Source of the DNA: Denitrovibrio sp. | Lineage (GTDB): Bacteria > Chrysiogenota > Deferribacteres > Deferribacterales > Geovibrionaceae | Direction of reading: 5' to 3' | Length of the DNA stretch: 38,847 bases | NCBI GenBank assembly: GCA_002869145.1 | Contig: PKTM01000018.1 | Coordinates: forward strand, 1 to 38,847 | Part shown: positions 3-26,273 of the stretch, piece by piece | Layout of the letters: every line of letters starts with the position of its first letter | How positions within the stretch are numbered: the first letter of the stretch is position 1 | Program-made: the position numbers and the translations under genes | The notes under the pieces: model-generated | What the model was told of the DNA's origin: nothing | Seen by the model: only the letters and a program-made list of their open reading frames with translations | Database searches by the model: none

Positions 3-3000
3 ACTGCGGAAGATACATCACTCACAATTAACGCACTTACTAACGATACTGACGTTGATGGTGACACACTTACAGTAGAGTCATTTGCTCAGCCCACTAA
101 CGGAACTGCTGTACTTAACGAGAATGGTACATTTACTTACACACCGAATGCTGATTACAACGGTTCCGACAGTTTCACCTACACCATTACAGATGGTAAG
201 GGCGGAACAAGCACAGCCACAGTGAACATCGGCATAACATCAGTAAATGACGCACCGGAAACAAGCGACAAAACAGTTTCTGTGGATGCTGATGGTAAAG
301 TGACATTTGCGTTGGACGACTTCAGCGAAGGTGGCGCAAAAGACACCGAGGATGATTCCTCCGCAGATATGACTACAAATATTGTAATCAACTCGCTTCC
401 AGAGCATGGAAAGCTTTTTGATGCTGCTGGTGATGAGGTTCAGGTTGGCGATAAGCTCTCAGACATAAGCGACTTAACCTATGTGGCAGATGAAGGCTAT
501 AACGCAACTGTTTTCATGGGAAGCACAGGCGAGCCTGGTGCTATATCTCAGTGGGGCGATGTGCAGGATGACGGCTCAATACGTTTCGAGCCTGCTAATG
601 GGCTTGGCGCTACTATTACAGCTACATATAAAGGCAATCCGGCAGAGATTGGCTTTAATGAAGATATAGGCAATCATCTCGGTCTTGGAATTGGCGTAAC
701 TGCTAGTGGTGACGAAGGGCAGATAGAACCGAACGAAAAAATCACGATAGACTTTGACCAGAAAGTAACAAACGGCGTGGTTGGCTTATCAGGGCTAGGC
801 GGTCACTTTGTGGACGGCGCATCACAGGACGCTCAGGCTAACTGGAATGCATATGCAGAAAACGAGAACGGAGATATGGTTCTTGTTGCTTCCGGCTTTG
901 TGACAAAAACGAACGACTCTTATGTTACTGCGGAGATAAGTGTAACTGATGAAGAGGGCAACCCTGTTGCATTTGATCAGCTTACTTTTGACGTATCCAC
1001 AAACAGCAACTCAAACTATACAGTTCAGTATATCCAGTACAATAACGCTGATATGTCGGACTCTTTTAACTATACAGCGGAAGATTCTGATGGACTTACG
1101 GGTAACGAATCTACTGTAACATTTGCATTGGCGGCAGGTGCAACCCTTGCATACAACACAGCCCCTGAATCAGAAGATAAGTCTGTATCTGTGGAAGACG
1201 GACAGGCAGTATTCAGCCTTGATTCTGTGGCTACTGATCTTGAGGATGATGCAAACCGTTCTGACGCTAATGAGACATCAATTAGAATTGAGTCATTACC
1301 AGAACACGGGCATCTCGAAGACCTTGACGGCAATGTCCTGAGTACTGGTGATATAGTTTCAGATGCCTCCGATATAAAATATGTTTTCGACGGTAATGCT
1401 GACGATAATGTTTCAGTTCTTATGGGCTCCAAAGGTTCAGGGTCAATTAATGACTGGGGAACATATAGCGAGGATGAGGGCAATATACGTTTTGAGTCTG
1501 GTGAAGTAACGGCGACAATATTTGCTTCAAATGAAGGAGTAGGCTTCAGCGATTATTCAGGGATAAACAATCACGAAGGCTTCGGGCTCGGAGTTGTCAG
1601 TAATAGCGGCGACGACGGTCAGATAGAAAGACACGAAAACCTTACAATAGAATTCGACAACCCTGTGTCAAACGCAACAGTAGGTCTTGCAGGGCTTGGA
1701 GGCCACTTTGAGTCTGGAGTTAACGCTTTTGCTCATTGGACAACATATGATGAAGACGGAAATTTTGTTGCAGAAGGTTTTGTTCAAAATGACAATGGCA
1801 ATGAGACTAACTCTTTTAATACGGGCGATCTCGAATTTTATTCGCTTGTGTTAACTGTTGAAAGCACCACCAACTCTAACTATACACTACAGTATATTGA
1901 GTTTGGCGCGACAACAACTGATGCTTTCACTTACGCCACTATAGATTCAGATGGCAAAGAGTCTGATATTGCAACAGTGACATTCGATATCGAACCATCA
2001 GCAGTGCTTACAGCTGAACATGCACCAGAGGCGGCTGAAGACATAGTGGAGACTACTGAAGACACAGCCGTTACGTTTAACTTACTAAGCAACGACACAG
2101 ACTTAGATGGCGATACACTTACTGTAGAGTCATTTGTTCAGCCTGAAAACGGCACGGTATCTCAGAATGGTGACGGCACATTTACTTATACACCGAACGC
2201 TGACTATAACGGCTCAGACAGTTTCACTTATACCATCACAGATGGCAAAGGGGGAACAGACACAGCCACAGTCAAGATAGGAGTAACACCAGTAAATGAT
2301 GCTCCGTTTATAGATCTGAACGGTGATGATCCACTTGTGTTTGGTGATGCAGAACCTACAGGCTTTGAGACAGATTATGTAATAGGTGAAGCCGGAACAG
2401 CTATCGCAGACTCAGATATGTATATAACAGATGCAGACAGCGATACTATGAGTAACGCATCCGTTGTTATCAACGATGCGAAAGATGGTGATGCACTTAA
2501 TTCTGACGGTATAGACACTAGCCTCTTGGATGTGGTTAACAACGGCACAACAGTGACCATAACTCCTAAAGACGGTGCTACAACAACAAATGCTGATTTT
2601 GAAAGTGCTGTCAAGGCAGTAACTTTCAGCACCACTGATGAAACAGACACAGACAGAGATATATCTGTTAATGTTAATGATGGAAAATCAGACAGCAATA
2701 TTGCTGTGACATCTGTAAACATCACAGTGCCTGAGAGTTATGAGCGTGTTGCTGACATATCATCTTATGATGATTTTGAAGCTGAAGCTTTCAAAGGACA
2801 CACATACGCTAATAACAACAGTCTGAAAACTACAGGGGCTGACAATGCAGACCTGACTATAGATAATGATGGTTTTTATGCTGTGGATGCTGTAGAGCGT
2901 AACAATAATGGCGATGACCCGAACGCTATAGAGACAGACGAGGCTGTTGTTTTCGACATGAAAGGTCTTGTGGACAGTGTGACCTTTGAAGTGAAAGGTG

Positions 3001-3596
3001 AAGTTGGCGGAAGCACTTGGGACATCTATGACGCAGAAGGCGACAGGATAGATTATGCTGACGGTTCAAACACTAACGACGGCAGACCTTTTGTCACTTT
3101 AAACGATGACGGGACAGCTACATTTACATCAGACACCCCGTTCAGATACATAGCATTTGACGGCGGTGATAACGGACAGGGCAATCAGTCCGGCACTCAG
3201 ACAGGTTTTGCTTTGAAACCAGTGTCTGCAGAGTTTTCTGATTCTGACAATAACGTACTGTCTGTTCTGGATGAAGGCGGAGATATCGACTTTGCAGGAA
3301 TGGAAGGCCTTGAGGCTGTTCATATGAATTCGTCTCAGGCGCAGTCAATAGAAAACCTTTCCATAGAGTCTGTTCTGCAGGTAACTGACGATGATAATAT
3401 ACTTCAGATAGCAGGCGGAAAAGACGACACGCTTGATATGAACGGATGGGAGCATCGGGGTGAAGGAGTATTCACAGGATCAAACGACTCAGGCGATACA
3501 GCCACTGTGCAAATTACCGGAGACTTCTCTTTTGATGCGGGAACAAATATAGTAACATTTAACCAGTATACTGATGACGGTACAGAGATATCATAG
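3..3596 (+). CDS. Giant type I-secreted cadherin-like repeat adhesin (LapA-like), C-terminal part
   Basis: This is a 5'-truncated gene: the frame is open from base 3, so an internal Met at 222 is not the start; 1197 residues are visible. It is very acidic, with Asp/Asn-rich loops and no cysteine that I can see, as expected of a secreted calcium-binding adhesin. In order it holds a cadherin-like/Big_9 repeat (3-255; ends in GSDSFTYTITDGKGGT and VNDAPE), two tandem modules of about 290 residues (about 256-1150 and 1156-2020) sharing INSLPEHG/IESLPEHG and VGLxGLGGHF, a second cadherin-like repeat (2052-2306), a further repeat region, and a C-terminal block (about 3250-3593) with ESVLQVTDDDNILQI, typical of type I secretion C-termini. 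No GGxGxDxxx RTX nonapeptides are seen here. The N-terminal retention module and LapG cleavage site would lie outside the window. The Lap exporter at 17514-25686 is its likely secretion system, by inference. Confidence 0.85.
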   Translation, partial: TAEDTSLTINALTNDTDVDGDTLTVESFAQPTNGTAVLNENGTFTYTPNADYNGSDSFTYTITDGKGGTSTATVNIGITSVNDAPETSDKTVSVDADGKVTFALDDFSEGGAKDTEDDSSADMTTNIVINSLPEHGKLFDAAGDEVQVGDKLSDISDLTYVADEGYNATVFMGSTGEPGAISQWGDVQDDGSIRFEPANGLGATITATYKGNPAEIGFNEDIGNHLGLGIGVTASGDEGQIEPNEKITIDFDQKVTNGVVGLSGLGGHFVDGASQDAQANWNAYAENENGDMVLVASGFVTKTNDSYVTAEISVTDEEGNPVAFDQLTFDVSTNSNSNYTVQYIQYNNADMSDSFNYTAEDSDGLTGNESTVTFALAAGATLAYNTAPESEDKSVSVEDGQAVFSLDSVATDLEDDANRSDANETSIRIESLPEHGHLEDLDGNVLSTGDIVSDASDIKYVFDGNADDNVSVLMGSKGSGSINDWGTYSEDEGNIRFESGEVTATIFASNEGVGFSDYSGINNHEGFGLGVVSNSGDDGQIERHENLTIEFDNPVSNATVGLAGLGGHFESGVNAFAHWTTYDEDGNFVAEGFVQNDNGNETNSFNTGDLEFYSLVLTVESTTNSNYTLQYIEFGATTTDAFTYATIDSDGKESDIATVTFDIEPSAVLTAEHAPEAAEDIVETTEDTAVTFNLLSNDTDLDGDTLTVESFVQPENGTVSQNGDGTFTYTPNADYNGSDSFTYTITDGKGGTDTATVKIGVTPVNDAPFIDLNGDDPLVFGDAEPTGFETDYVIGEAGTAIADSDMYITDADSDTMSNASVVINDAKDGDALNSDGIDTSLLDVVNNGTTVTITPKDGATTTNADFESAVKAVTFSTTDETDTDRDISVNVNDGKSDSNIAVTSVNITVPESYERVADISSYDDFEAEAFKGHTYANNNSLKTTGADNADLTIDNDGFYAVDAVERNNNGDDPNAIETDEAVVFDMKGLVDSVTFEVKGEVGGSTWDIYDAEGDRIDYADGSNTNDGRPFVTLNDDGTATFTSDTPFRYIAFDGGDNGQGNQSGTQTGFALKPVSAEFSDSDNNVLSVLDEGGDIDFAGMEGLEAVHMNSSQAQSIENLSIESVLQVTDDDNILQIAGGKDDTLDMNGWEHRGEGVFTGSNDSGDTATVQITGDFSFDAGTNIVTFNQYTDDGTEIS
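53..257 (+). repeat. Cadherin-like repeat unit, copy 1
   Basis: This unit within the adhesin aligns closely, at protein and DNA level, with 2102-2306. Both contain DxDGDTLTVESF, then FTYTPNADYNGSDSFTYTIT. The homology extends back to the left edge (3-52), where it is weaker. High DNA similarity suggests recent duplication or gene conversion. Confidence 0.75.
2052..2306 (+). repeat. Cadherin-like repeat unit, copy 2
   Basis: Second copy of the unit at the window start, separated from it by the two 290-residue modules. It carries TEDTAVTFNLLSNDTDLDGD and ends at VNDAPF, the usual boundary of Big_9/cadherin-like tandem repeats in bacterial adhesins. Confidence 0.75.
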
Positions 3597-11496: not shown

Positions 11497-12816
11497 ATGA
11501 AATTCACACCACACACTATCGAGGAGACTGCTGAGATGCTTGAAACCATTGGTGTTTCGCAGGTCAGTGATCTATTCTCACCTATTCCGGACGAGCTGAA
11601 AACAGAGAAGTTTGACCTTCCTGTAGGTATCAGTGAGTCAGAGACAATGAAGATAATGAAAAAACTTGCCGGCAAGAATGATGCAGACATGGTCTGTTTT
11701 CTGGGTGGAGGAGTATACGAACACTTTATCCCCGCCGCAGTGGACGCTCTTTCGTCCCGACCGGAATTTTACACAGCATACACACCTTACCAGCCAGAGG
11801 CGTCACAAGGCACTTTGCAGGTTCTTTACGAATTCCAGACCATGATGTGCGAGCTTACAGGGATGGAAGCATCAAACGCATCCATGTACGACGGCGGAAC
11901 GGCACTGGCAGAAGCTGCTCTTATGGCGCTGCGTATATCAAAAAAACGCAGCAGAATAGTTTTAGATGGCTCTGTGAATCCAGTGCAGAAAGAGATAGTT
12001 AAAACCTATCTTAGTTTTCTGGAGGTGGAAGTCGCAGACATCGAATATGGTTCGGACGATTCAATAAACAACTATCTGGACGGGCAAACAGCAGGATTTA
12101 TTTTTCAGAACCCAGCTTTTGACGGAACAGTGAAAGACTATACAGAGATAAACGAAAAGATACACGCAGATAAAGCCGTATCTGTGGTTTCTGTTTATCC
12201 TATCTCTCTCGGCCTCATAAAAACCCCCGGCGATATGGGATTCGACATTGCTGTAGGTGACGGCCAGTCACTCGGAAATCCGCTCAGTTTCGGCGGTCCA
12301 TATTTTGGTTTTATGACCACAACGATGAAACACATAAGAAATCTGCCGGGCAGGATTGTGGGCAAGACCGTGGACACAAAAGGGCGTGACGGATATGTTC
12401 TTACTCTTCAGGCCAGAGAGCAGCATATCAGAAGACAAAAGGCCACATCAAACATTTGCAGTAACCAGTCACTTTGCGCCATGAACGGGCTTTTTTACAT
12501 GTCGCTCATGGGTGAGAAAGGGCTTATGGATGCTGCCTCCCTCTGCAAGAGTAAGGCGGAATATGCCAAATCTGAGCTTGCAAAAGTGAAAGGCGTGAAA
12601 GTGGCTGATGGTGAGACCTTTAACGAGTTTGTTGTTGAACTTTCGGCAAAAGCGGAAGATGTTTGCCTAAAGCTTGCTGATAAAGGGATACTGGCGGGAA
12701 TTCCAATGAATAACTATATAAACGATGCTGAAAACAAGCTTCTTGTAGCTGTTACAGAGCTTCGGACAAAGCAGGATATCGATACACTGGTAAGTGAGAT
12801 AGGGGGTGCTTTATGA
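11497..12816 (+). CDS. gcvPA: Glycine dehydrogenase (decarboxylating) subunit 1
   Basis: 439 residues, the alpha chain of the split P protein found in many bacteria and archaea. With GcvPB it decarboxylates glycine using PLP. Recognised by the N-terminal IPDELK segment, YTPYQPEASQGTLQVLYEFQT, EASNASMYDGGTALAEA, GDGQSLGNPLSFGGPYFGF and EQHIRRQKATSNICSNQSLCA. The gene ends in a 4-base ATGA overlap with gcvPB. Confidence 0.95.
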   Translation: MKFTPHTIEETAEMLETIGVSQVSDLFSPIPDELKTEKFDLPVGISESETMKIMKKLAGKNDADMVCFLGGGVYEHFIPAAVDALSSRPEFYTAYTPYQPEASQGTLQVLYEFQTMMCELTGMEASNASMYDGGTALAEAALMALRISKKRSRIVLDGSVNPVQKEIVKTYLSFLEVEVADIEYGSDDSINNYLDGQTAGFIFQNPAFDGTVKDYTEINEKIHADKAVSVVSVYPISLGLIKTPGDMGFDIAVGDGQSLGNPLSFGGPYFGFMTTTMKHIRNLPGRIVGKTVDTKGRDGYVLTLQAREQHIRRQKATSNICSNQSLCAMNGLFYMSLMGEKGLMDAASLCKSKAEYAKSELAKVKGVKVADGETFNEFVVELSAKAEDVCLKLADKGILAGIPMNNYINDAENKLLVAVTELRTKQDIDTLVSEIGGAL

Positions 12817-17491: not shown

Positions 17492-17513
17492 CTATTAATA
17501 TGTGAAGGTGTTT

Positions 17514-19589
17514 ATGTTTGTTATTAGTCTGCGAAAAGCATTCAGTGTGTTGTTATTAGCTCTGTTTGTTTTTCATTTTAATATAAAAGTGTACTCAGAA
17601 ACTTTATCCCTCCAGCCTCGTACGCTTAGCGATGTTATGGCGGATGTAGCTGCTACTAACCCGGAAATACTCGAAGCAATTCAGGTTTATGAAGGGGTTG
17701 TTCATGAGGTGGCTGCCGCCGAAAGTGGTTACAAGCCTAAAGTGGTCACCGATTTGTCCATAGGGAAACAGGTGACAGACGGTGTGGCATCCAACGAGGT
17801 TCGTCGCGATCTGACGGCAAGTTCAGCTTCATTATATGTTAGACAAAACCTTTTCAACGGAAACGGAACAGACAACCATGTAAATGAAACCAAAGCCCGT
17901 GTGAAAGCAGCCGCATATGAAGTGCTTAATGTTGCTAATAAGGTTTTTGAAGGGGTTGTAGAATCATACATAAACATTTTGAAAGAGCTTGCACTGCTGC
18001 AACTGAGTGAGAATAATATTTATACTCAAGCTCAGATACTGGAGCAGATAAAAGAGAAGACAGAAGCTGGTTTCGGCAGAGCCTCTGACCTTCTGAACGC
18101 TCAATCCAAGCTGGCGCTGGCCAGAGCAAACTTCATTTCACAACAGCAGAACCTTAAACAGGCATCAGTTAAATTTCATAAATATTACGGCAAGTTTTTA
18201 GACCCAAAACAGCTTGTGGAACCGACGGATTTATTCCCGTTTCCTGACAGAGAGGACGAAGTTGTTGATATGGCATTTAAAAGTTATCCGGCCATACAAG
18301 TGTCTAAGTATAATGTCATCGCAAGAAAATACACCATGAAAAGAACTGAATCGCTTTATTTTCCAAAGATAGATGCTGAGCTGAAAGCTAATTATTCTAA
18401 CAACACAAGCGGAGACGTTGGCGACACCACCAGTTATAGCGCTATGCTTTATTTCAACTATGAATTGTATGACGGTGGTCTGAAAAAAGCGGAAAAGCAG
18501 AAGAACTATTCACAGGTGCTGAAAGAGCATGAGAGAAGCTATATAGAAAGAAGAAATCTTAATGAATCTGTACGTCTCGCGTGGAATATAAAAGAGGCGG
18601 AAGACAGAAAATATGAATTTCTTCAGGAGCATATCGATTTAACTGAAAAAACCCTCGACGCTTTTAAGCAGGAATACGAGCTAGGGCGCAGAACTCTTCT
18701 GGAGCTTCTGGACATGGAAAATGAATACCAGAGAGCTCTTGAGGCTCTTACAGAATCAAAATATACATCCATGATAGCCCATTACAGGGTTATGTTTGTT
18801 ACTGGTGTGCTGCTTCAGAAATACAAAATGGATATTTTTGACAAGGTAGGCCTGAGTGACGAAGAAGTAGATTTCGCAACACTGGAAAAATACAGAGAGC
18901 TTGGCACAGACAGGGACATGGACAAGGTTAATGACAACTACGACAAATGTGATAATTCTATTTTAAACTCTAAAGCCGGTACTTACGGCTGTTTTGAAAA
19001 GTCTAACATAAAAGTTGGTTACACCAGACCGGACAAGATAGAACCTTACATTAAGCCTAAAGGTGCGCAGACTCTGGAAAGCTCAGAAGGTCTTGGCGAA
19101 CCTTTATCACTTGGTGAACCGGAAGGTCTTGGCGAGCCGTTATCACTTGGTGAGCCGGAAAGCCTTGGCGAGCCACTGGTTGCCGAGGAAGCACCTGAGC
19201 CTCAGGTTATGGAAATAGAAAATACAAAAGAAGCACAGAGTTTTAATTTTGACAACGTCACTTTTTTGCTGAATTCCAGCAGGCTTACCAAATCTTCTGA
19301 GAAGATAGTGAAAAAGGTAGCCGCTCAGCTTAAAACTATAGACAATTTTTCTCTGGAGATTATAGGCCATACTGACACATCCGGCAGAGCATCTTTTAAC
19401 AGAGAGTTGTCTGCCGAGAGAGCTGACACAGTTTTGAAAAAACTAGCTAAAATGGGAGTAGACCCGGCCAAGATGAAGGCATATGGTAAAGGGGAGAACG
19501 AGCCTCTATACTCAAATGCCACCAGAGAAGGCAGGAAAAAGAACAGAAGGATTGAGTTTAGGCTTCAGCTAATAAACTATCAAAAATGA
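17514..19589 (+). CDS. TolC-like outer-membrane channel fused to OmpA peptidoglycan-binding domain
   Basis: 691 residues from ATG 17514, chosen because GAAGGTG (17504-17510) precedes it; the frame opens at GTG 17502, which lacks a Shine-Dalgarno. A signal peptide ends near KVYSETLS. Residues about 30-440 form the TolC-type outer membrane factor with long coiled coils (repeat starts such as TLSDVMADVAATNP and VEPTDLFPFPD; LLELLDMENEYQRALEAL). A thrombospondin type 3-like calcium loop follows (GTDRDMDKVNDNYDKCDNS), then a Gly-Glu-Pro-Leu repeat linker, then an OmpA domain (about 585-690) with IIGHTDTSGRASFNRELSAERA and GRKKNRRIEFRL. Function: outer-membrane pore of the type I adhesin exporter (LapE role), here tethered to the cell wall. 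In related clusters the OmpA protein can be a separate neighbour; here the two are one chain. Confidence 0.88.
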   Translation: MFVISLRKAFSVLLLALFVFHFNIKVYSETLSLQPRTLSDVMADVAATNPEILEAIQVYEGVVHEVAAAESGYKPKVVTDLSIGKQVTDGVASNEVRRDLTASSASLYVRQNLFNGNGTDNHVNETKARVKAAAYEVLNVANKVFEGVVESYINILKELALLQLSENNIYTQAQILEQIKEKTEAGFGRASDLLNAQSKLALARANFISQQQNLKQASVKFHKYYGKFLDPKQLVEPTDLFPFPDREDEVVDMAFKSYPAIQVSKYNVIARKYTMKRTESLYFPKIDAELKANYSNNTSGDVGDTTSYSAMLYFNYELYDGGLKKAEKQKNYSQVLKEHERSYIERRNLNESVRLAWNIKEAEDRKYEFLQEHIDLTEKTLDAFKQEYELGRRTLLELLDMENEYQRALEALTESKYTSMIAHYRVMFVTGVLLQKYKMDIFDKVGLSDEEVDFATLEKYRELGTDRDMDKVNDNYDKCDNSILNSKAGTYGCFEKSNIKVGYTRPDKIEPYIKPKGAQTLESSEGLGEPLSLGEPEGLGEPLSLGEPESLGEPLVAEEAPEPQVMEIENTKEAQSFNFDNVTFLLNSSRLTKSSEKIVKKVAAQLKTIDNFSLEIIGHTDTSGRASFNRELSAERADTVLKKLAKMGVDPAKMKAYGKGENEPLYSNATREGRKKNRRIEFRLQLINYQK
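19089..19178 (+). repeat. 36-bp tandem repeat in TolC-OmpA linker
   Basis: Two full 36-base units (19089-19124 and 19125-19160) and half a third encode repeated GLGEPLSLGEPE. The linker joins the TolC channel to the OmpA domain, and copy number could vary between strains and change its length. Confidence 0.85.
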
Positions 19590-19590
19590 T

Positions 19591-20250
19591 ATGTCAAAAA
19601 TTAAGTTTTACGCCCTTGCCGCTGCGATTTTTTTACTGAGTATCGCGGGAATCAGTGCTCAGCTCAAGTTTTATATACCTGAGACGGAGATGAATGCGTA
19701 CAGCAGTAAATATGGAGATATGGCGGTCAGAAGGGCTGAAGGACTTTTGACGTTGATGGACAGTATCATAGACGAAAAAGAGGACGTTAAGGTCATAAAA
19801 GTAAACAGCTTTTATAACCAGATTCCATATAAGTCGGACATGAAGACATGGGGTAAAAGTGATTACTGGGCGAGCCGTCTGGAGTTTCTTGGGGTTGGTC
19901 AAGGTGACTGCGAGGATTATGCGGTTTCAAAATTCCTGACGCTGCTTCAGCTTGGAGTTCCGGAGGAGAAGCTTTTTCTGACCTATGTTAAGGCGAAAGG
20001 TTATGCCGATGAAGCTCATATGGTAGTCACTTATTACAAGAAAAAGGGCACCGTACCCTTTGTGCTTGATAATTATATAAAAAAGATAATGCCCGCAACA
20101 CAGCGGAAGGACTTGTTTCCGGTATATAGCTTTACTGCGAACGATCTTTTCCTTCAGAAGCAAAAGGGGCTTGGTAAAAGAGTAGACCCGTCTCAGTCTA
20201 AAAATGTCAGCAAACTTAAGTCTGTTGACCTTGAGATAATGAAGAGGTAG
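19591..20250 (+). CDS. lapG: LapG-like periplasmic cysteine protease (BTLCP family)
   Basis: 219 residues with an N-terminal signal/anchor helix (about residues 5-23). The transglutaminase-like catalytic triad is C107 (in GQGDCEDYA), H143 (DEAHMVV) and D160 (VLDN). The spacing of 36 and 17 residues is very close to that of characterised LapG. D106 and E108 flank the cysteine where LapG binds the calcium it needs. LapG cuts the N-terminal retention module of a LapA-type adhesin and releases it from the cell surface. The gene starts 1 base after the TolC-OmpA stop, and 3 bases separate it from the lapD homologue that should hold it inactive. Confidence 0.9.
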   Translation: MSKIKFYALAAAIFLLSIAGISAQLKFYIPETEMNAYSSKYGDMAVRRAEGLLTLMDSIIDEKEDVKVIKVNSFYNQIPYKSDMKTWGKSDYWASRLEFLGVGQGDCEDYAVSKFLTLLQLGVPEEKLFLTYVKAKGYADEAHMVVTYYKKKGTVPFVLDNYIKKIMPATQRKDLFPVYSFTANDLFLQKQKGLGKRVDPSQSKNVSKLKSVDLEIMKR

Positions 20251-20253
20251 CAA

Positions 20254-22197
20254 ATGACTTTATTGAAGCAGATTCAGATATTCGTGGCTATACTGCTTGT
20301 CGCAACCCTTGCGATCGTTTTGAAAATTAATTTCGATAATACAAAAGAGTTTGTAAGAACCCAGCTATACTCTAACGCCAAAAATACTGCAAATTCACTC
20401 TCGCTTTCTCTCAGTTCCGTGACTGATGATAAGGCCACTATGACTACAATGATAAGAGCGATGTTTGACGGTGGATACTTCGAAGAGATCAGCCTTGTTG
20501 ATGCCGAAGGTGAGGTTGTAGAAAAAATATATCAGGAGCCAAAAATAGAGGGAGTACCTCAGATCTTTGTAGATTTTGTAAATTTTGAAAATGTACCTGC
20601 TGATGCACAGATATCCAGCGGCTGGTCGATATTCGGCACGCTTTATGTAAAAGGACATCCGGGGCTCTCATACATCAGACTTTACAACACTTTCAAATAT
20701 CTTAGTATCTCCTTCATTGTGATAGGTGTGGTTGCGCTCATTGTAACCTTTTGGGTGCTGAAGCTTATATTCAGACCTTTGAATGCTGTTCAGCGACAGG
20801 CAGAGGCCATAGAGAATAACGAGTTCATTATAAACGAAAACATCCCAAAAACACCTGAGATGAAGCAGGTGGTAACCACCATGAACTCTATGGTGGAGAA
20901 GGCACAGACAATTTACAACAGAGAGATAGAAGCTCTGAAGAATTATCAGGAGCTTTTATATAAAGATCAGCAGACCGGGCTTTATAACCGAAAATACTTT
21001 ATAAAACAGCTTAGCTTTTTTCTAGGATCAGATGACGCCAACGCAAACGGCGAAGTATCCATATTTTCATTTGAAGGGCTGGAGGATGCTATATCCGAGG
21101 CGGGGCATCAGGTTGTGAACGGATTTTTTAATAGCTGCAAAGATATTATTACGGATAAAACCAGCAGCTTCGGCAGAGCTGTGCCTGCCTTTTTGAACGG
21201 AAAAGAGTTTGCGCTCATCCTTCCGGGGGTTGAAGCGGAGAGTGCACTTAAATGTACAGAAGAAATTACCAGCGGTATTAATGAACTGATAGAGCAAAAT
21301 GAAGAGCTGAGTGGTGTTCTGAAGATTTGCTGCGGAACAGTCCCATACAGGTATGACGAAAAGATGGGGAATGTGCTTTCAAAAGCAGACTATGCTGTCA
21401 CTGTAGCAAAAACCCGTGATTCCGGTTATGTGGAGAGGTTCAAAGATGATGGCAGCCAGGTTGTGATGGGCAAAATGGAGTGGAAAAACATGATAGAGGA
21501 TGCGCTGGAGAACGGCAGGTTTATCCTTACATCCCAGTCTGTTGTGTCTGATATCGGCGAGCTTCATCAGGAAATCTATGTCAATATGCTGGACGAGGAA
21601 GGGGTTGTACAGAAGGCGGGCTTCTTTATGCCTATGGTTGTCAGCCTGAACCTTGCCAACAGCCTGGACAGGTATGTTCTGGAAAGAACAGTTGAGTTTC
21701 TCAGCACCCATAAAGATGACACTCTTGCCATAAATATAACTGATATGTTTCTGAATGACAGGGAATCATTTTCGTGGTTCAGAAAGCTTCTGGTATCTGC
21801 CAAGCATCTTGTGGACAGGCTTACTTTTGAAATATCAGACAGTGCTATAAAAAACCATCTTGAGATATGTCTTGACTTCGCCGGTCTAATAAAAGGGCTT
21901 GGGTTCACATTTGGCGTGGACAGGTTCGAGATGAGCCAGACTTCTCTGGAGAATCTTCAGCAGCTTAAACCTAACTATCTCAAGGTTGATTACGATTATC
22001 TGATAGACGCTGAGGCCGGAAAGGCAGCAGGATCACTAAAATCGCTTCAGACTATAACCGAAAGCCTCGGCATAAAGCTTATCGCGACTAAGATTGACAA
22101 CGACGATCTTAAACGTAAGCTTGAGGATAACAATATTAAATATTTTCAGGGCAGAGGTGTATCAGGCATCAACCCTCTGGTAAAAGACAATGAGTGA
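20254..22197 (+). CDS. lapD: LapD-like inner-membrane c-di-GMP receptor (degenerate GGDEF-EAL)
   Basis: 647 residues. TM1 (about 7-24), periplasmic LapD/MoxY-N domain (about 25-145) with W124 in SSGWSIFGTLYV near the position used by LapD to grip LapG, TM2 (about 148-170), HAMP (about 172-225), GGDEF-like domain (about 240-390) and EAL-like domain (about 410-645). Both catalytic motifs are lost: GGDEF reads NGKEF (315-319) and the EAL motif region reads EIYVN (440-444). It should therefore bind rather than make or break c-di-GMP. When c-di-GMP is high, LapD sequesters LapG and the adhesin stays on the cell; when low, LapG is freed. The end overlaps the exporter start. Confidence 0.9.
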   Translation: MTLLKQIQIFVAILLVATLAIVLKINFDNTKEFVRTQLYSNAKNTANSLSLSLSSVTDDKATMTTMIRAMFDGGYFEEISLVDAEGEVVEKIYQEPKIEGVPQIFVDFVNFENVPADAQISSGWSIFGTLYVKGHPGLSYIRLYNTFKYLSISFIVIGVVALIVTFWVLKLIFRPLNAVQRQAEAIENNEFIINENIPKTPEMKQVVTTMNSMVEKAQTIYNREIEALKNYQELLYKDQQTGLYNRKYFIKQLSFFLGSDDANANGEVSIFSFEGLEDAISEAGHQVVNGFFNSCKDIITDKTSSFGRAVPAFLNGKEFALILPGVEAESALKCTEEITSGINELIEQNEELSGVLKICCGTVPYRYDEKMGNVLSKADYAVTVAKTRDSGYVERFKDDGSQVVMGKMEWKNMIEDALENGRFILTSQSVVSDIGELHQEIYVNMLDEEGVVQKAGFFMPMVVSLNLANSLDRYVLERTVEFLSTHKDDTLAINITDMFLNDRESFSWFRKLLVSAKHLVDRLTFEISDSAIKNHLEICLDFAGLIKGLGFTFGVDRFEMSQTSLENLQQLKPNYLKVDYDYLIDAEAGKAAGSLKSLQTITESLGIKLIATKIDNDDLKRKLEDNNIKYFQGRGVSGINPLVKDNE

Positions 22198-24334
22198 AAA
22201 GGTAAATGTTGACCCTTTAATGCAGTGTCTGGTTATTCTGACCAAACTGAATAACAGTCCAGCAACAGCTGAAGCACTTTCGCACGGACTACCTCTTGAT
22301 CCGTCCGATATCAGGCGAAAGCTTTTTACGATGGAAGGTGGGAAAGCTAACTTTTCCAGAGCAGCAGCCAGAGCAGGCTTTAATGCCACGTTGGTGAAGC
22401 GAAAATTGAGCGCCATCCCAAACGTGGTTCTTCCGGCTATACTGCTTTTAAAGGATGATTCCGCATGTGTGCTGACTGCTCTTGATTCGGAATCCGGCAA
22501 GGCGGAGATCATTGTTCCTCAGATAGATGAATTTCCTCAGGAGATAGAACTTGAAAAGCTTGAGCAGGAATTTCTCGGCTATGCATTTTTCCTGAAAAAA
22601 ATATATATAGACAACAGACCAGAATACGAAAAAGAGGGAGCAGAGCACAATGAGAATTGGTTTTTTGGCACTCTCTGGCGCTTTAAAGGTATTTATACAA
22701 ATGTGATAATAGCATCACTGGTTATAAATATTTTTGTAGTTGTGGGGCCGATTTTTACTATGAACGTGTATGACAGAATAATCCCGCACAACGCAGTAGA
22801 CACTCTTTGGGTGCTGGCGGTGGGGATGTTTGTTATATACTCATTTGATCTGCTTCTGAAGTTTATACGGACTTATTTTCTGGAAGTCATCGCCAAAAAG
22901 AGTGATGTCATTCTTTCCTCTATGATATTTGAGCAGGCGCTGAATATTAAAATGAGTGAGAAACCTCGTTCAGTAGGTTCTTTTGCGAATAATATAAGAG
23001 ACTTCGACAGTATAAGGTCTTTTTATGCTTCGAGTGCTCTTGTGGCTTTTATAGACTTCCCTTTTGTGGTGATATTTCTGATGGTAATATTTTATGTGGC
23101 CGGCTATCTCGTGTTTGTGCCGGTTGTTATCATATTTGCAATCATAGCTTACGGGCTTCTGGTGCGGGGACCACTTCAAAGAAGCATCGAAAGCACTTAC
23201 GAATCATCATCACGTCGAAACGGTCTCCTCATTGAGTCGCTTTCTAATTTGGAAAACATAAAGTCTTTTAACGCCAGCAGTTCTGTTCAGTGTGGGTGGG
23301 AGGAGCGAACCGGGGACATAGCTGTTAAAAGTCTTAAATCAAGAATACTCTCGAGTTCGCTATCTACTGTTTCAGTATTTTTCACACAGCTTTCAACAGT
23401 GGCAATAGTCGTAACCGGCGTTTATCTTATACGTGCCGGAGACCTCACCATGGGGGGGCTGATAGCAACAGTTATACTCTCTTCGAGAACCATAGCGCCA
23501 ATGTCGCAGGTGGCTTCGCTGCTCTCTAACTACCAGCAGATGAAGACATCTCTCACAGCTTTGAACGACCTTATGAACAAAGATGTTGAAAGACCAGAAC
23601 AGAAAAGTTTTCTGCGAAGACCTGTTTTTAAAGGTGCAATATAGTTAAAGAACGTATCATTCAGCTATCCCGACGAGACCAATCAGGCTCTTCGTGACAT
23701 AAACCTTAAAATAGAACCGAAGGAGCGAGTGGGTATTGTAGGGCAGGTAGGCTCCGGTAAGTCAACACTCAGCAAGCTTCTGTTAGGTCTTTACGAGCCC
23801 ACCGAGGGTTCAGTTTTTGTAGACGGCATAGATATTCAGCAGATGGACCCCGCTGACCTGCGTCATAATATCGGCTATGTGCCTCAGGACGTAACACTTT
23901 TTTCCGGCACTGTGCGGGAGAATATCGTTTTTAAAGCACCTCATTCTGATGACGAGGCGATACTTGATGCGGTAAATATTGGAAACGTAAACGTCTTTAC
24001 AGACAAACACCCTATGGGGTTGGATCTTTTTGTGGGAGAACGTGGAGCTAATTTATCAGGCGGTCAGAGACAGGCTGTTGCTGTTGCCAGAGCAATGCTC
24101 GTAGACAGTCCTATTGTTCTTATGGATGAGCCGACAAACTCTATGGATTTTACCACTGAGGCGAAAGTCATTCAGAACCTAAGAAAGGCTACAGAGGGTA
24201 AAACAACAATAGTTATAACACATAAACCTTCTATCCTTGCCATTGTTGACAGGCTTATTGTGATGGAGGGCGGCCATATTGTTATGGATGGGCCAAAGAA
24301 CGAAGTGCTCCAGAAGCTGGGGAAAAACAGATGA
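22190..24334 (+). pseudogene. lapB: LapB-like type I secretion ABC exporter, interrupted by in-frame TAG
   Basis: Together 714 codons in one frame with a single amber codon, number 485 (23642-23644), between the membrane domain and the ATPase. Before it: an N-terminal C39-like domain lacking the protease cysteine motif (DPLMQCLVILTKLNNSPATA, as in LapB) and a six-helix transporter domain from about residue 160. After it: the nucleotide-binding domain starting LKNVSFSYP, with Walker A GQVGSGKST, signature LSGGQRQ, Walker B IVLMDEP and switch ITHK. The family consensus around the stop (GxIEFKNVSFSYP) has Glu, so GAG to TAG is the likely lesion. No other damage is seen. If real, adhesin export is lost unless the stop is read through or the downstream part is reinitiated (in-frame ATG 23729, which would lack the first ATPase strand). 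Confidence 0.88.
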
Positions 24335-25686
24335 CAGGCGATAACAGATCAAAATTCAAACGAAACAAAAATGTTCGCAAGCAGGACGTGGCTTATATGA
24401 AGAGCCTTAATGCTGCCGTGGTGCAGAAAAGTCCGGTGCGTATGTCGCTGGTTTTATATATTATAGCCGGGCTTACTTTTGCATTTATCTTCTGGGCAAA
24501 TGTGGCAGAAGTGGATGAGATGACGAGAGGGATGGGGCGTGTTATCCCTTCACGCCAGATACAGGTGGTTCAGAACCTTGAATGCGGCATTGTCGAAGAT
24601 ATCCTTGTAAGAGAGGGTGAACACGTCAACAAGGGTCAGGTGATGATCGTAATTGACGACACAGGTTTTGGCAGCTCATTCGAAGAGAGTAAAACCAGAG
24701 TAGTGGAATTGAAAGCAAAGCTTGTAAGGCTGCGTGCAGAGGCAGATGAAAAACCTTTCAAACCTGACAAAGAGCTTTTGGAAGAATTTCCTGAGCTGGT
24801 GGGTGAAGAGATGAATCTGTACAATCTTAACCAGTCCAAACTGAAGAGTGAGCTTGAAGTGCTTCAGCAGCGTCTGAAACAAAGACAGATAGAGCTTCAA
24901 GACACAAGGGCAAGGATAAAAAGCCTTAAAGAAAGTGTAGCACTCATTCAGAAAGAATATAAAATCACTAAGCCGCTTTTTGACAGAGGGCTAGTGTCAG
25001 AGGTTGAGTTTCTCCAGCTTCAGCAGAAGGAGATAGAAAACAAGAAAGAGCTGGATTCTATGGAAAATTCTATAGGTTCGGTCATCTCAAAGATAGAAGA
25101 GACAAGGAATATGATAAGTGAGACCAGACTGAAATTTCAAAGCCTTGCTCAGGAAGAGATTAATAAAACGCTGGCAGAGCTGAAAAGACTTAGCAACACT
25201 CAGGTTGCCATAGAGGACAGGGTGCAAAGAGCAAATGTAAGAAGCCCTGTGGACGGTACCGTTAACCAGCTTCTTGTAAACACCATAGGCGGAGTGGTTA
25301 AGCCGGGCATGGACATTCTGGAGATAGTTCCGGATGATGATGCTCTTTTAGTCGAGGCGAAGATAAAACCTTCGGATATAGCGTTTATATATCCCGGACT
25401 GAAAGCTATTGTTAAACTCACAGCGTATGATTATGCAATATATGGCGGTCTTGAAGGGAAGGTGGTGCACATAAGTGCTGACACTATTGTGGACGAAAAA
25501 CAGGAGCACTATTATCTGGTTCGTATCAAAACAGATAAAAGCTACCTTGGCAATGAATCAGAAGAGAAGGACATTATGGTGGGAATGACTGTAATGGTGG
25601 ACATTTTGACTGGCAAAAAGACCGTTATGCAGTATTTGATGAAGCCTATACTTCGTGCGAAATACAATGCATTGCGAGAGAGATGA
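24331..25686 (+). CDS. lapC: HlyD/LapC-type membrane fusion protein
   Basis: 451 residues: a short cytoplasmic N-terminus, one membrane helix (about 38-57), a biotinyl-lipoyl-like half motif (GIVEDILVREGEHVNKGQVMIVIDD), a long coiled-coil hairpin (about 115-285), the second half motif (VRSPVDGTVNQLLVNTIGGVVKPGMDILEIVP) and a beta-barrel domain. This periplasmic adaptor bridges the LapB-type ABC exporter and the TolC-like channel. It starts in a 4-base ATGA overlap with the ATPase part of the exporter gene, so the amber codon there could have a polar effect on it. Confidence 0.92.
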   Translation: MTGDNRSKFKRNKNVRKQDVAYMKSLNAAVVQKSPVRMSLVLYIIAGLTFAFIFWANVAEVDEMTRGMGRVIPSRQIQVVQNLECGIVEDILVREGEHVNKGQVMIVIDDTGFGSSFEESKTRVVELKAKLVRLRAEADEKPFKPDKELLEEFPELVGEEMNLYNLNQSKLKSELEVLQQRLKQRQIELQDTRARIKSLKESVALIQKEYKITKPLFDRGLVSEVEFLQLQQKEIENKKELDSMENSIGSVISKIEETRNMISETRLKFQSLAQEEINKTLAELKRLSNTQVAIEDRVQRANVRSPVDGTVNQLLVNTIGGVVKPGMDILEIVPDDDALLVEAKIKPSDIAFIYPGLKAIVKLTAYDYAIYGGLEGKVVHISADTIVDEKQEHYYLVRIKTDKSYLGNESEEKDIMVGMTVMVDILTGKKTVMQYLMKPILRAKYNALRER

Positions 25687-26273
25687 TGATTATAATATTC
25701 AGCAGGGATAAATTCCTGTGCGACAACCTTATTAAAACTTTCGAATCTGAGGCAGTCTTTTGCTCTGCAGGATTTGACGAGTTTAGGAAAAAAATGAAGG
25801 AGAAGTCTGGTGATGTGGTTATTGTAGATATAGCTAATACTGCTCCTTTTGATATTACAAAGCTTAAGTGCGGTTCAATTGTTCTTTCGGGTGTGCCTAA
25901 GTTTAATGAGGCTGTAAAGCTTATGCGGTTTGGAGTAAGAGGTTATGGAAACAGAGCTATGATGCCTGACAACATGAGACAGGTGGTGAACTCTGTGCGC
26001 TCCGGTCAGGTCTGGATGCCGCCATTCATAATAAGCAAACTAATATCAAACATGCCTGTGGGGGATTTGTCTGAGAATCAAACAGATGATGTTGAGTTTT
26101 CTGAAAGGGAATCGCAGGTTGTGAAGCATGTATCTTCCGGACTCAGCAACAAAGAGATTGCACAGGAGATGGGGATAACAGTCCGCACTGTTAAGGCTCA
26201 TCTTACATCAATATTTACAAAAACTGGTCTGAGAGACAGGGTTGCACTTGCTCTGAAATATAAGCAAGCCTGA
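25683..26273 (+). CDS. LuxR/NarL-type regulator with degenerate receiver domain
   Basis: 196 residues. The C-terminal HTH (about 135-195) is typical: FSERESQVVKHVSSGLSNKEIAQEMGITVRTVKAHLTSIFTKTGL. The N-terminal domain (about 1-115) has a receiver-like outline, with an aspartate in VVIVDIANT, but the acidic pair after strand 1 reads SRD and the conserved lysine is replaced (RGYGNRAM), so phosphorylation control is doubtful. It overlaps the adaptor gene (ATGATGA) and closes the lap operon. Such regulators often sit beside adhesin type I systems. Autoregulation through the palindromes at 17305-17408 is only a guess. Confidence 0.82.
   Translation: MMIIIFSRDKFLCDNLIKTFESEAVFCSAGFDEFRKKMKEKSGDVVIVDIANTAPFDITKLKCGSIVLSGVPKFNEAVKLMRFGVRGYGNRAMMPDNMRQVVNSVRSGQVWMPPFIISKLISNMPVGDLSENQTDDVEFSERESQVVKHVSSGLSNKEIAQEMGITVRTVKAHLTSIFTKTGLRDRVALALKYKQA

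Follow-up and report, generated by a model that had tools for sequence, protein, structure and literature searches.

In an assembly of Denitrovibrio sp., the gene for a LapB-type exporter shows an amber codon at the border between the membrane and ATPase domains of its product. This raises the question of whether the gene is inactive, split into two working chains, recoded or wrongly represented in the assembly. We addressed this question in the window, a stretch of 38,847 nucleotides that makes up the whole of contig C4 of the assembly (G000; 2.88 Mb in 29 contigs), and by comparison with other genomes of the family, including the congeners G001 and G002.

On the forward strand, the TAG at 23642-23644 is codon 485, as the initial annotation had stated, of the reading frame that starts with the ATG at 22190, and the frame runs on past the TAG to a stop at 24332-24334. 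The upstream piece (22190..23641, 484 aa) is predicted to comprise the N-terminal part and the membrane domain of a LapB/LssB-type type I secretion permease/ATPase: it matched Pfam ABC_membrane (6e-25) and positions 1-466 of TIGR03375 (type_I_sec_LssB; 6.9e-159). The downstream piece (23645..24331), comprising the 229 codons after the stop, matched ABC_tran (3.1e-34) and positions 468-695 of TIGR03375 (3.7e-103), and contains the GSGKS and LSGGQ motifs of a nucleotide-binding domain. The TAG stands in for one position of the TIGR03375 model, and its location at the membrane/ATPase border agrees with what had been claimed from the sequence. The two pieces alone scored 530.3 and 346.1 bits against this model, neither reaching the cut-off of 693.1, as compared with 896.9 bits when the stop was read through. 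According to Pfam, both domains are present; the one-chain frame is broken in G000 and open in all nine full-length relatives. Judged by these matches, the exporter frame is not a chance open frame.

The exporter gene is embedded in a Lap-type cluster on the forward strand whose gene order is the same in G001 and G002. Upstream are genes for a TolC-family outer membrane protein with an OmpA domain (17502..19589; TIGR01844, 9.4e-71, above cut-off; OmpA from Pfam), a LapG-type cysteine protease (19591..20250; Peptidase_C93) and a LapD-type c-di-GMP receptor (20254..22197; LapD_MoxY_N, GGDEF and EAL). The LapG- and LapD-type proteins both matched their equivalog models under the cut-off (NF045674, 166.3 bits against 320; NF045673, 325.6 bits against 1020). 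Downstream are genes for a LapC/HlyD-type periplasmic adaptor (24331..25686; TIGR01843, 2.7e-123, above cut-off) and, at the end of the cluster, a LuxR-type regulator (25683..26273; GerE). The TolC-, LapG-, LapD- and HlyD-type genes are uninterrupted, and the TolC- and LuxR-type genes are syntenic in both congeners. According to its reading frame and Pfam matches, the C-terminal part of a large Big_9/cadherin-repeat adhesin lies at 3..3596 (+), truncated by the contig start. Contig C4 starts inside this gene and the N-terminal part of the adhesin is absent from it. This adhesin is a possible substrate: by analogy with known Lap systems, the lapB product would export a large adhesin, putatively the one whose end lies in the window. 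By homology, a dimeric ABC permease/ATPase would form the outward path for the adhesin together with TolC and the HlyD-type adaptor, and LapD and LapG would control its export.

Comparison of codon 485 with the same position in related genomes, a check proposed in the initial annotation, showed that all relatives read in the correct orientation have a sense codon there. Glutamate is encoded at this site in 9 of 9 aligned full-length family orthologues, and also in a frameshifted lapB copy of G005. In wider homologues read on the right strand, glutamate predominated, with few other residues and no stop. Among the relatives compared, a TAG at the domain border occurs only in G000. The frameshift in the G005 orthologue (on C5, around 11600-11640 of locus L078) lies at a run of C and may reflect phase variation or a sequence error.

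To assess the condition of the interrupted gene, we compared its two pieces with those of the congeners. The dN values of the 5′ piece were 0.132 and 0.121 from G000 to the congeners and 0.140 between the congeners. For the 3′ piece, the corresponding values were 0.104 and 0.097, and 0.088. At otherwise invariant columns of lapB, G000 has 7 unique substitutions besides the stop, as compared with 13 and 10 in the congeners. By these measures, lapB of G000 is without other decay besides the stop. The stop, if real, would therefore be very young.

We considered whether the two pieces might work as separate chains, the second being made from a start codon within the downstream piece and assembling with the first. 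The initial annotation had placed an in-frame ATG at 23729, but the codon at 23729..23731 (+) is GTG. This is the first in-frame start codon past the TAG; the next are ATG at 23843, which is the first in-frame ATG, and GTG at 23879. An AAGGAG motif 3 bases before the GTG at 23729 could favour initiation there. However, this spacing is short, and the GTG lies past the FSYP stretch, so a chain started there would lack the first 28 codons of the ATPase domain. Moreover, AAGGAG encodes the K-E of PKERVG, which is common to G001 (PNERIG in G002), making the motif weak evidence of a start. The stop is absent from all relatives read on the right strand and none of the nine full-length relatives is split. 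The earlier judgement that a working two-chain split is unlikely is in keeping with these data. We therefore rejected a split half-transporter: a functional pair produced in this way appears exceedingly improbable, and a split exporter is probably absent as biology.

We also scanned stretches of the G000 assembly for places where the same frame is coding-like on both sides of a lone stop codon. The scan yielded 55 candidates in the first 1,134,847 bases of G000 and, taken as a union, 74 candidates in 1,534,847 bases, or 4.8 per 100 kb. In the complete congener G001, 7 candidates were found in 452,000 bases, or 1.5 per 100 kb (P about 0.001 for the difference in rate); the scanned stretches are not a random sample, a few having been picked from earlier search matches. 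From these figures (74 in 1.53 Mb vs 7 in 0.45 Mb), G000 would exceed the congener rate by about one in-frame stop in every 30 kb. No candidates occurred in the small samples taken from G002 (40 kb) and G005 (20 kb).

The 55 candidates were all compared with the relatives' loci, the further 19 of the 74 falling outside this comparison. Searches of G001 and G002 covered 36 of the 55, the others having been left out in two steps (7, then 12), mainly on account of length. For 29 of the 55, a relative's homologue spanned the site. A relative had a sense codon in 26 of these cases and only stops were found in three, so natural gene termini are also among the scan's candidates, making up at least 3 of the 29 that could be tested; in one of the three, C13:257028, the stop is seen only in a 40% homologue. 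For four of the 26, one of which matches nothing closer than a 42-45% homologue, a single-step polarisation was impossible, and only the other 22 were used. These were polarised by eye, assuming that the G000 codon was originally synonymous with that of the relatives, and 21 of the 22 fit a G:C to T:A change: 12 from Glu or Asp/Glu, 5 from Gly and 4 from Ser. The remaining one is a transition. Under equal rates, G:C to T:A changes are expected to account for 36% of nonsense changes (binomial P about 6e-9).

The interruptions also appear to stem from base substitutions and not from indels, since no relative ORF matched in two frames among 137 ORFs; many of these ORFs are either antisense or represent one gene in two relatives. 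A stop was contained in 47 of the 137 matched ORFs, a figure that is not a rate because the loci were fetched for interrupted genes, with antisense matches included. Synonymous sites are saturated between the congeners, such that a genome-wide substitution spectrum is not measurable. Further stops were encountered in G000. One of those that arose in the search for ABC exporters, on C2, was rejected as the gene's own end. Another lies at C29:78533-78547, where the third codon of an ABC ATPase-like gene is a stop and the G001 homologue (83% identical) has Glu.

Similar stops occur in genes that a cell can hardly do without. The single gyrB match in G000 contains an in-frame TAG, and all 6 relatives searched have an open gyrB. 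In-frame stops also interrupt nusA (C22:92011) and trmD (C14:81058), and bamA contains two (C14:96861 and 96114); the pieces of each of these three match adjoining positions of NCBIfam models. The copy-number search and the comparison with relatives cover gyrB only. Almost all Gram-negative bacteria depend on these four genes for survival. A living population should therefore not have all four cut, so consensus errors must account for a large fraction of the stops. Such errors would be sparse, since the housekeeping genes for RF1, RF2 and all 13 GTP_EFTU domain matches are open in G000. At C10:248036-251312, gyrB (TAG) neighbours a second interrupted gene (TGA), which we take to be recF-like, the two stops lying about 1.5 kb apart. 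On the same contig, the genes for MutS (C10:208410) and UvrA (C10:215512) are both interrupted by TAA.

The TAG in gyrB also bears on whether amber codons are read through or recoded in this organism, which would restore a full-length exporter. The conserved coding sequence past the lapB stop is likewise in keeping with such an explanation. By contrast, RF1 is open in G000 and scores over its cut-off, PylS has no match in this genome, and a CTA anticodon is present in none of the 38 tRNA matches to the Rfam model, a count that does not extend to tRNAs missed by the model. Moreover, all three stop codons are represented among the 22 polarised interruptions, and TAG (4) is outnumbered by both TAA (13) and TGA (5). 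Amber suppression or recoding, through either pyrrolysine or a CTA tRNA, was therefore rejected and would be every bit as surprising as a two-chain exporter.

Together, these data point to a base error in the assembled consensus as the origin of the lapB amber, and the organism itself very probably has an uninterrupted LapB-type exporter. The TAG at 23642..23644 is marked as a probable error by the Glu codon in 9 of 9 full-length family orthologues and by the genome-wide pattern of stops. More specifically, this reading follows from the substitution class that the lapB stop shares with the others, from the lack of other decay in lapB and from the similar stops in indispensable genes. Two considerations run against it: long contigs, which in G000 reach 464 kb, argue for decent coverage, under which random read errors should be outvoted, and lapB is dispensable in other bacteria, so its stop alone could be real.

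In a possible mechanism, G-to-T or C-to-A damage or miscalls, arising for example from 8-oxoguanine in the template, would have persisted into the consensus at sites with few supporting reads. Such changes may have entered it through amplification from few templates, and codon 485 of lapB may have the same origin as the other stops. The 1.53 Mb of G000 contain five single Ns and one NNN, as compared with none in the stretches of G001 and G002 examined. These Ns hint at thin read support in places. Artefacts of oxidised guanine are usually low-frequency read errors. The changes in G000, for which such a cause is proposed, differ from these in that they stand in the assembled consensus. They resemble them in that one substitution class, G>T or C>A, is dominant. 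Oxidative G>T sequence artefacts have been described (PMC12390751).

The second explanation in order of likelihood, after a consensus error as the most likely, is that LapB has been inactivated by a real nonsense mutation of very recent origin, as might arise in a lineage where G:C to T:A changes are more frequent than usual. We consider this unlikely. Loss of a LapB-type exporter can be tolerated: in a laboratory line of Desulfovibrio vulgaris, a single substitution in DVU1017 is reported to have abolished biofilm formation (PMC5646257). Repair of 8-oxoguanine may also be weak in the family, since MutM (Fpg) and Ogg-HhH had no match, and MutY none over the cut-off, in any of the 10 family genomes searched (G000-G007, G009 and G011). 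The missing repair genes could make the family sensitive to oxidation. However, their absence is common to all 10 genomes and does not explain an excess of stops in G000 alone; loss of mutY, mutM and Ogg as the cause of a mutator was rejected for this reason. HhH-GPD genes number two to three per genome in the 10 genomes, and both of those in G000, which are of the endonuclease III type, are open. An HhH-GPD match on C10 that looked shortened has an unbroken reading frame on inspection. Finally, stops of this kind also lie in gyrB, bamA, nusA and trmD, where they should be absent from any viable lineage.

A related explanation takes the stops as true lesions or mutations in few or dying cells: a heavily oxidised anaerobe devoid of the usual 8-oxoguanine glycosylases would have suffered a burst of G:C to T:A changes in essential and dispensable genes alike, lapB included. 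This appears less likely still than a single recent mutation. If the lesions are real, a family whose genomes have no matches for MutM, MutY or Ogg would be well suited to studies of guanine oxidation that goes unrepaired. Given the excess of in-frame stops in this assembly, a lone stop in a G000 gene offers, without reads, no basis for calling a pseudogene, a split gene or recoding.

The consequences of a true lapB null would also depend on a second LapB-type exporter, which is uninterrupted in G000 (C28:111259-113418). A HlyD-type gene lies downstream of it, and genes for a TolC-type protein and a long repeat-rich protein lie on the opposite side. This region (C28:105091-115890) encodes the TolC-type protein, a 1334-aa repeat-rich protein without a Pfam match, the exporter, the HlyD-type protein and a LuxR-type protein. 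Among the matches listed, TIGR03375 was exceeded over its cut-off by two proteins in G000 and by one each in G001 and G002. The initial annotation had held that a null exporter would leave the whole adhesin apparatus silent. This is not supported: given the similar stops in indispensable genes, the organism most likely lacks the lapB stop, and with the second exporter and its HlyD- and TolC-type neighbours present, some adhesin export could continue even in a true null. If the stop is real, display of the adhesin would depend on the second exporter taking over, and complete silence is uncertain.

In its composition, the G000 cluster resembles LapB/LssB-type (TIGR03375) Lap systems, in which an exporter with ABC_membrane and ABC_tran domains is accompanied by HlyD, TolC and LapD- and LapG-type neighbours. 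The exporter exceeds the curated cut-off for this type only with the stop read through, and the difference lies in the in-frame TAG at its domain border. In Desulfovibrio vulgaris Hildenborough, a single base change in DVU1017, the proposed lapB, is reported to have eliminated biofilm formation (PMC5646257). Loss of lapB in G000 could therefore matter, if the stop is real. According to the same study (PMC5646257), the DVU1017 change is a missense mutation observed at 50- to 68-fold coverage, whereas the G000 stop is known from the consensus alone, and its genome context points to error.
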